A DNA stretch of 64,000 nt from Streptomyces sp. Q6 (lineage in GTDB: Bacteria > Actinomycetota > Actinomycetes > Streptomycetales > Streptomycetaceae), in contig NZ_CP146022.1 in assembly GCF_036967205.1 (NCBI RefSeq), positions 8,122,001 through 8,186,000 of the forward strand. The letters run 5' to 3'. Positions 51,627-51,860 of the stretch are shown here, piece by piece (position 1 is the first letter of the stretch; each line of letters opens with the position of its first letter). The position numbers and the translations under genes are program-made. The notes below the pieces were generated by a model, which saw only the letters and a list, made by a program, of their open reading frames with translations, did not search any database and had not been told where the DNA came from.

Positions 51627-51688
51627 CCACGCGCTCCAGGGGGCGTCACTTCAGGTGCGGCCCGGCGGCGCCTCCCGCTGCCGTCGAC

Positions 51689-51831
51689 CGCGTGCAGGTG
51701 CGCAGGCCGCGGCTCCTTCTCCTGCTCAGAGTGCGACGCGGGTTCGAACCCCGTCGCCGGCTCCGGCCGGTGTCGTCCAGCGGCCCAGGACGCTCCGTCG
51801 CCGCCCACTTCGATCTCTGAACACCTACGCG
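51689..51831 (+). ncRNA. Structured RNA with permuted tRNA-like module (bacterial Y RNA / YrlA-like)
   Basis: The plus strand folds as a closed multi-branch RNA. An outer stem pairs CGCGT (51689-51693) with ACGCG (51827-51831), AGGTG (51696-51700) with CACCT (51822-51826), and TCAGAG (51726-51731) with CTCTGA (51815-51820). Inside lie, in order, a T-arm GCGGG-TTCGAAC-CCCGT (51738-51754), an acceptor-like 7-bp hairpin CGCCGGC/GCCGGTG capped by the UNCG-type loop TCCG (51755-51772), and a D-arm GTCC-AGCGGCCCA-GGAC (51775-51791) with the conserved GG. This is a tRNA whose acceptor stem is closed and whose anticodon stem is opened into the long stem, as in YrlA-type bacterial Y RNAs that bind Rsr/Ro60 proteins. 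A 25-base, partly pyrimidine-rich insert lies on the 5' side. A strong terminator follows at once. No Rsr gene is in the window. Confidence 0.72.
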
Positions 51832-51860
51832 TCAACCGGCCCGCGCTGCGGGCCGGTTGA
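51832..51860 (+). terminator. Terminator of the structured RNA
   Basis: A perfect 13-bp stem (TCAACCGGCCCGC / GCGGGCCGGTTGA) with loop GCT starts directly after the last base of the RNA outer stem. It lacks a U tract. It lies 15 bases before the convergent glutathione peroxidase stop and could serve both strands. Confidence 0.85.

Follow-up and report, generated by a model that had tools for sequence, protein, structure and literature searches.

The locus considered here, situated between an APH-family gene and a gene for glutathione peroxidase on the other strand, lies in a 64 kb stretch of DNA (the window, at 8.12-8.19 Mb of a contig of 8.57 Mb). The question it raises is which kind of RNA it encodes, and what an RNA built like a rearranged tRNA would be for. 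An initial annotation of the DNA had proposed a bacterial Y RNA of the YrlA type, with a permuted and capped tRNA module; the comparison with homologues described below agrees with this assignment, and it adds a complete anticodon arm whose triplet evolves fast.

Architecture of the RNA

Regarding its layout, the RNA spans positions 51692-51827 (a full-length match of 131.4 bits to the covariance model R1, described below) and, like all the features listed here, it is on the plus strand; it is closed by a Y stem made of an outer helix, pairing 51692-51697 with 51817-51822, and an inner one, pairing 51705-51713 with 51797-51805. Inside this stem, the anticodon arm (51717-51733, tRNA positions 27-43) has the loop CTGCTCA (51722-51728), with the triplet GCU at 51724-51726 followed by C37; then come a variable region of 4 nt (51734-51737, positions 44-48), the T-arm (51738-51754, positions 49-65), the 3' strand of the acceptor stem, CGCCGGC (51755-51761, positions 66-72), the TCCG loop that caps this stem (51762-51765; CCA is not encoded), the 5' strand, GCCGGTG (51766-51772, positions 1-7), and the D-arm (51775-51791, positions 10-25). 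The T-arm, the capped acceptor hairpin, the D-arm and the outer stem are all at the places given in the initial annotation, which had also described the tRNA as opened at the anticodon stem; here the permutation is correct, but the anticodon arm is complete and the opening falls between positions 26 and 27.

As for the flanks, a G+C-rich hairpin of 13 bp occupies 51832-51860; of the terminator that had been proposed directly 3' of the RNA, this hairpin is present, whereas a U-run is missing, and the terminator and promoter consensus scans at the Y RNA locus gave no match. On the 5' side, the -10-like hexamer TGCCGT (51679-51684) is located 13 nt before the RNA start. Among the 77 type A copies defined below, 72 have TANNNT between -22 and -6, versus 9% in shuffled sequences, and the window copy is one of the five without it. 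A further conserved block is found at -44 to -34 relative to the start (51648-51658 in the window, and in homologues), and it is clearest in the rsr-linked type.

With the terminator hairpin included, the window copy has a minimum free energy z-score of -2.82, and none of 200 shuffles folds equally well. The minimum for the lone copy is -55.9 kcal/mol, against -36.5 kcal/mol for the consensus fold; energy folding misses the consensus, so the support for the fold comes from covariation and not from energy.

Conservation of the Fold

When 199 genomes of the genus were searched at the DNA level, a minority had strong matches and many had weaker ones. R1 was derived from 25 of the first 30 loci retrieved, using the stems of the initial annotation and leaving the anticodon arm out, and its matches of at least 105 bits in the same genomes were called type A. 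There are 77 such copies, the window copy counted, with 77 distinct sequences; their lengths are 135-146, and no reading frame is kept across them, a conserved protein frame being what the initial annotation had named as evidence against an RNA.

The 77 sequences were aligned with MAFFT (alignment A4), in which 98.6% of the pair cells are standard and both-side changes occur in 25 of the 38 pairs; none of 500 shuffles attains any of five covariation measures, with the reservation that R1 held all the tested stems except the anticodon arm and a helix between positions 45/46/48 and the 3' linker. When the structures are shifted by 1 to 3 columns, pairing drops to 33-48%. The Y stem has both-side changes in 11 of its 14 pairs, divided between the outer helix (4 of 6) and the inner one (7 of 8), and the order T-arm, capped acceptor stem, D-arm is present, as in YrlA. 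The covariance-model search suggested at the outset, run over the 199 genomes, has in this way yielded 77 copies with strong covariation in the stems, and the existence of a YrlA-type Y RNA family with this fold, a structural claim read from the alignment, appears close to certain.

The Rfam model of YrlA (RF02553) gives the window copy 13.7 bits, versus a gathering threshold of 69, and its cut-off is reached in none of 197 genomes of the class; the model thus seems to under-serve the class. Weak matches to R1, to RF02553 or to the later model R2 were left uncounted when they covered model positions 26-102 or tRNA pairs. The below-threshold RF02553 matches in actinobacteria include tandem tRNA genes (e.g., G000:C1:2743738-2743839), a trap for naive YrlA searches.

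Anticodon Arm

Nearly all type A copies have, directly 5' of the T-arm, a 5 bp stem with a 7 nt loop, followed by a variable region of 4 or 5 nt, and from position 27 onward the columns of A4 match tRNA numbering; the module is therefore a complete tRNA whose opening, where the Y stem is attached, lies between positions 26 and 27. Over the 77 sequences, the arm alone is paired in 99.2% of cells, and its covariation score is 0.412 versus 0.121 in shuffles, with none of 500 reaching it. Pair 30:40 is CG in 52 copies, UA in 13 and GC in 12, and pair 31:39 is AU in 56, CG in 18, GC in 2 and UA in 1; both are intact in 77 of 77. Two of the five measures are not above the shuffles (double-change pairs, 2, attained in 496 of 500; pair types, 6, attained in 431 of 500), because only two arm pairs vary on both sides. 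In the loop, C32 is found in 76 of the 77 copies, U33 in 77, A37 in 67 and A38 in 77. Energy folding gives the arm a probability above 0.5 in 20 of the 77 native RNAs (0.01 in the window copy), versus 40 of 54 real tRNAs.

ARAGORN was considered as a proof of the arm and then dropped: all 77 un-permuted modules pass, yet so do 343 of the 385 in which the arm was shuffled, while none of 231 fully shuffled ones does, so it supports the tRNA body only. Another fold, in which the variable region (45, 46 and 48) pairs with the 3' linker and the arm branches off to the side of a classical YrlA stem, was rejected; its covariation score of 0.216 equals that of the shuffles (0.216; 257 of 500), two counting measures are matched by just 21 and 30 of 500 shuffles, and the two pairs that were calculated, 45:124 and 46:123, attain a probability of 0.5 in none of the 77 RNAs. 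This helix appears to have little support in the alignment.

Genomic Association with Rsr

For 57 of the 77 type A copies, a TROVE match follows on the same strand within 3 kb downstream. Y RNA matches of at least 60 bits occur in 88 genomes, of which 82 also contain TROVE, and TROVE is present in 12 further genomes that have no Y RNA match at this level (co-occurrence P of 6e-35 over the 199 genomes, kinship ignored). Together with the covariation, this sustains the identification of the RNA as a YrlA-type Y RNA. In a second set, made of 80 named rsr loci, 76 have a Y match, and 61 type A copies were found, 49 of them new. In the 72 loci where it was measured, the distance from the end of the last Y match to the first matched Rsr codon is 22-296 nt, and in 58 of them it is 22-60 nt.

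The rsr loci hold up to three Y RNAs: type A, the short type C, and type B, a second, YrlA-like Y RNA without anticodon loop. Of the short ones, 85 of 117 distinct sequences can form a 7 nt loop with Y32 and U33 on the TTC stem, versus 0.5% of shuffles; taking the longest stem, the loop has 7 nt in 60 of 117 and 3 nt in 31 of 117. Real tRNA loops account for 27 of 88 of their 7 nt loops. In addition, the second Y RNAs at L196:372-519, L189:121-272 and L200:121-258 have, by eye, D-arms of the Leu or Ser type, and they look as if modelled on class II tRNAs.

Evolution of the Triplet

The loops were compared with the 44 distinct tRNA loops that ARAGORN finds in the window genome, here called real loops; type B copies were excluded from all loop statistics. 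The whole 7-mer equals a real loop in 63 of the 77 type A copies, and 37 of the 49 newly found sequences of the second set also have real tRNA loops. Parsimony on a tree from one FastTree run, with the arm excluded, counts 24 changes at position 34 and 22 at position 35, which rank 2 and 4 of 136 columns with a median of 2; positions 32, 33 and 38 have 1, 0 and 0 changes. At positions 34-36, transversions outnumber transitions by 41 to 12, whereas the 49 remaining unpaired columns that were compared have 134 transitions and 111 transversions (P 1.9e-5). Among the distinct CUNNNAA loops, 12 of 16 are real tRNA loops, versus 21 of the 64 possible (P 8e-5).

A further trait concerns positions 36 and 37. 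In the 44 real loops, G36 is followed by G37 in 11 of 11 cases, and the other bases by A37 in 33 of 33. The long bacterial copies behave alike, G37 being present in 7 of the 8 that have G36 and in 4 of the other 140 (148 loops, including two rows that look misread, AATGTCA and ACCTCCT), and so do the viral copies described below (8 of 9 and 0 of 63); the short Y RNAs break this rule, with G37 in just 3 of 10 having G36. Taken together, the transversion bias, the excess of real loops and the 36/37 rule point to selection for resemblance to real anticodons, and not to neutral drift. C37 occurs in 8 of the 77 type A copies, that of the window included, in 10 of 61 of the second set and in none of the real loops; its recurrence may serve to avoid modification or may mark decay.

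An Orphan Subfamily

A D-arm resembling that of tRNA-Glu is present in 17 of the 77 type A copies, including the window copy, and all 17 are unlinked to rsr. The D-arm with the two preceding bases reads TCGTCCAGCGGCCCAGGAC in the window copy and TCGTCTAGCGGCCTAGGAC in tRNA-Glu(UUC) of the same genome; over positions 8-25, 17 of 19 letters are alike. The 20 type A copies that are not linked to rsr come from 18 genomes, and 16 of these contain TROVE at another place; the other two are the genome coded G196, with two orphan copies, and the window genome, where the search for an Rsr/TROVE gene proposed in the initial annotation gave no match (one of the searches lacked a positive control). None of eight window proteins around the locus, one being a metallo-beta-lactamase stretch cut at a partial codon, matches any of 41 other loci, compared over flanks of 1.5 kb in 29 loci and up to about 8 kb in 12. 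A single DNA match (84%) places a relative on the linear Streptomyces plasmid NZ_CP109366. We assign the window copy to a dispersed orphan subfamily that takes tRNA-Glu as its model.

As for its present state, the window copy may be a decaying relic without function, a possibility that concerns this copy alone and that we rate clearly below even. It would fit with a genome in which no Rsr gene was found, with TGCCGT in place of TANNNT, with C37 and the U28xU42 mismatch in the anticodon arm, and with a position near the contig end (8.17 of 8.57 Mb). On the other hand, 33 of 35 consensus pairs form, the misses being U28xU42 and G3xA148 (alignment numbering), the terminator-like hairpin is still there, and G196 likewise retains its two orphan copies without TROVE.

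Occurrence in Other Genera and in Phages

A second covariance model, R2, which includes the arm, matched 68 of 345 genomes of the class at E 1e-6, many of them by partial matches over tRNA pairs. Over 30 loci from 21 other genomes, the whole arm is present in 23 of 40 distinct matches with the T-arm motif, and the arm-bearing copies outside the genus come from ten genera and three families. Two loci of other genera, L365 and L362, have four or five tandem Y RNA matches each, some with Gln-like D-arms or Pro-like loops by eye.

Regarding phages, a DNA search of a phage collection with the window as query gave no match. Of 108 stretches of viral contigs, 80 were examined, and a pattern scan combined with R2 identified arm-bearing copies at 60 of these 80 loci, 72 distinct ones in all; the pattern requires C32, U33, A38 and part of the T-arm, and 60 of the 72 copies match it while 12 do not, so that 60 of 80 is not a frequency, and the viral evidence consists of the triplet, position 37, the stem and the Rsr link only. 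The 72 copies display 27 triplets, none of the stop type, and a relative of Rsr is encoded in the same stretch in 49 of the 60 loci. By PHROGs, two of three tested contigs carry phage lysis genes; the third gave no match with the four proteins tried.

A search of annotated phages with the Rsr protein returned 83 records. Ten of these phages were examined, in which several R2 matches are weak; by a stem and loop criterion, an arm-bearing copy is present in seven (VanLee, Olaya, BRock, Neville, Atuin, Satis and LuckySocke), and none was found in GiJojo, Kela and Frankenweenie. In three named phages, the arm-bearing copies sit among annotated tRNA arrays. The host of Olaya is Xanthomonas, and therefore arm-bearing Y RNAs extend beyond the phages of actinobacteria. 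The gene deposited in VanLee as tRNA-Arg(tct) corresponds to the first half of a Y RNA. This gene (L489:2141-2212), the tRNA-Ser of LuckySocke (L488:2223-2296) and the tRNA-Arg of GiJojo (L496:2194-2268) all fall inside R2 matches directly upstream of a Ro-like gene, and for this reason the three are probably misannotated Y RNAs. In the Streptomyces phage Kela, an RNA ligase gene is annotated (L492:1663-2415) just before the Ro-like gene; by the stem and loop criterion, the Y RNA match of this phage is without an anticodon arm.

Relation to Known RNAs

Permuted tRNA genes of algae and archaea have the 3' half before the 5' half and are processed to tRNA; the order of the halves is the same here, but the acceptor strands form a closed hairpin inside a Y RNA. 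The short type C RNAs are presumably of the YrlB kind, the bacterial Y RNAs without a tRNA domain; they have the same Y stem and occur in the same loci as type A, and differ in lacking the tRNA domain, with an apical hairpin that can often be drawn with a 7 nt Y32-U33 loop. The RNA of the window also shares with tRNA-Glu(UUC) of its genome the T-arm motif and the geometry of the anticodon arm, in addition to the D-arm; it differs in being permuted, capped, devoid of CCA and fused to a Y stem, and its triplet, GCU, is not the Glu anticodon.

The closest relative is YrlA (RF02553; structure 6CU1 of the Salmonella RNA), with the same Y stem around a T-arm, a capped acceptor stem and a D-arm in permuted order, and, in most type A copies although not in that of the window, with a gene beside rsr. 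Typical traits of YrlA are also the binding of Rsr, with the tethering of an effector such as PNPase, and modifications of the tRNA type (D, pseudouridine). According to the RF02553 consensus and passages of the review PMC8394870, YrlA has only the D, T and acceptor arms, whereas an anticodon arm of canonical size is added here, followed by a variable region of 4-5 nt, and the score is far below the gathering threshold. The sections of the YrlA literature consulted (including PMC7790460, PMC8394870, PMC9569102 and PMC11472068) describe no anticodon arm in a Y RNA; relative to the three-arm mimicry presented in these sections, the fourth tRNA arm is new.

Function and Alternative Explanations

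The mechanism that we propose is an Rsr-bound, permuted-tRNA Y RNA acting as a decoy for proteins that read anticodon arms; as a whole package we consider it evenly poised, and for the decoy role taken by itself our confidence falls somewhat short of even. The Y stem, which holds a complete tRNA permuted between positions 26 and 27, would bind Rsr, a Ro60-like ring. Since its acceptor end is capped and could not be charged, the particle would show the anticodon arm outside translation, and the RNA would serve as bait or competitive inhibitor for proteins that recognize anticodon loops. The most likely targets would be anticodon nucleases of host defence, toxins or phages; bound or cut RNA would be passed on to the Rsr machinery, and the displayed anticodon would shift as the targeted tRNA shifts. 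Three observations make nucleases the preferred candidates: the triplet moves quickly from one real identity to another, the RNA of some phages lies within their tRNA arrays, and passages of PMC7790460 link Rsr-YrlA operons elsewhere to the repair of RNA once anticodons have been cleaved; the choice of a nuclease as the most likely partner is thus read from fast evolution and context. The same passages suggest that the tRNA-like domain of YrlA could act as a competitive inhibitor of an anticodon nuclease, and they report that fragments of Salmonella YrlA were not detected, so that YrlA is not a substrate of that nuclease. We count this last result against the proposal, together with the two arm measures that do not rise above the shuffles, the energy folding of the arm, the recurrence of C37, the short Y RNAs that break the 36/37 rule, the three phages in which no arm-bearing copy was found (Kela, despite its RNA ligase gene beside Ro, GiJojo and Frankenweenie), and the window genome, which gave no TROVE or Rsr match and whose copy has a weak -10 and a stem mismatch.

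Another explanation would be an ordinary YrlA in its known role, tethering Rsr to PNPase or another nuclease, in which the extra 5' hairpin is a plain U-turn loop with a drifting triplet. U-turn loops fix U33 for structural reasons, and this structure alone would account for the invariant U33; the type B sisters in the same loci look classical, without anticodon loop, the RF02553 consensus has no such arm, and C37 recurs. Drift, however, should favour transitions, while positions 34-36 show 12 transitions to 41 transversions; 12 of 16 distinct CUNNNAA loops are real (P 8e-5), the long copies obey the 36/37 rule, and no stop-type triplet occurs among the 72 viral copies, which together leave this explanation unlikely. 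Reading of the arm by tRNA-modifying enzymes or synthetases (e.g., the t6A machinery), with the RNA as a substrate or regulator of modification, seems to us less likely again: position 36 is U in 59 of 77 copies and position 37 is A in 67, many having U36-A37, and YrlA is a substrate of DusA and TruB according to the review PMC8394870, but orphan and short copies use other bases at 36 (the orphan-type set of 19 rows includes two that are mislabelled, L184 and L201), C37 is present in 8 of 77, and the phage copies would be poorly explained.

The loop might instead pair with codons or with complementary RNA, as a ribosome-directed or antisense seed that directs the Rsr particle. Most loops are indeed those of real decoding tRNAs, and the long and short RNAs of one locus share their triplet in none of 26 loci, a count from a rough extraction in which some triplets look misread; a Y stem at 26/27 and a capped acceptor should, however, hinder entry into the ribosome, and we regard this pairing as improbable. 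Finally, a permuted tRNA gene or a tandem-tRNA remnant, which makes or once made a tRNA, would agree with the acceptance of all 77 un-permuted modules by ARAGORN and with the below-threshold YrlA matches given by tandem tRNA genes (G000:2743738). Such an origin is very improbable, considering that the two acceptor strands form a helix closed by a short cap, that CCA is not encoded in the window copy, that the Y stem covaries and that most copies lie by rsr.

Implications

With a fourth arm present and an anticodon that evolves, the vague question of why bacterial Y RNAs mimic tRNA becomes a direct one, namely the identity of the enzyme that would recognize this anticodon. The sequence signature described here finds arm-bearing Y RNAs in many bacteria and phages, and it suggests that some phage tRNA annotations are really Y RNAs. 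Tentatively, actinobacteria and phages may keep a fast-evolving set of Y RNAs bound to Rsr, each of which displays one chosen anticodon on a whole permuted tRNA or on a bare hairpin. These RNAs would act as decoys in a conflict over anticodon cleavage, with host copies shielding tRNAs and phage copies, which several phages have among their tRNA arrays, blunting host anticodon nucleases. If this is true, the fast switching of the anticodon would be the mark of a tRNA-cleavage arms race.
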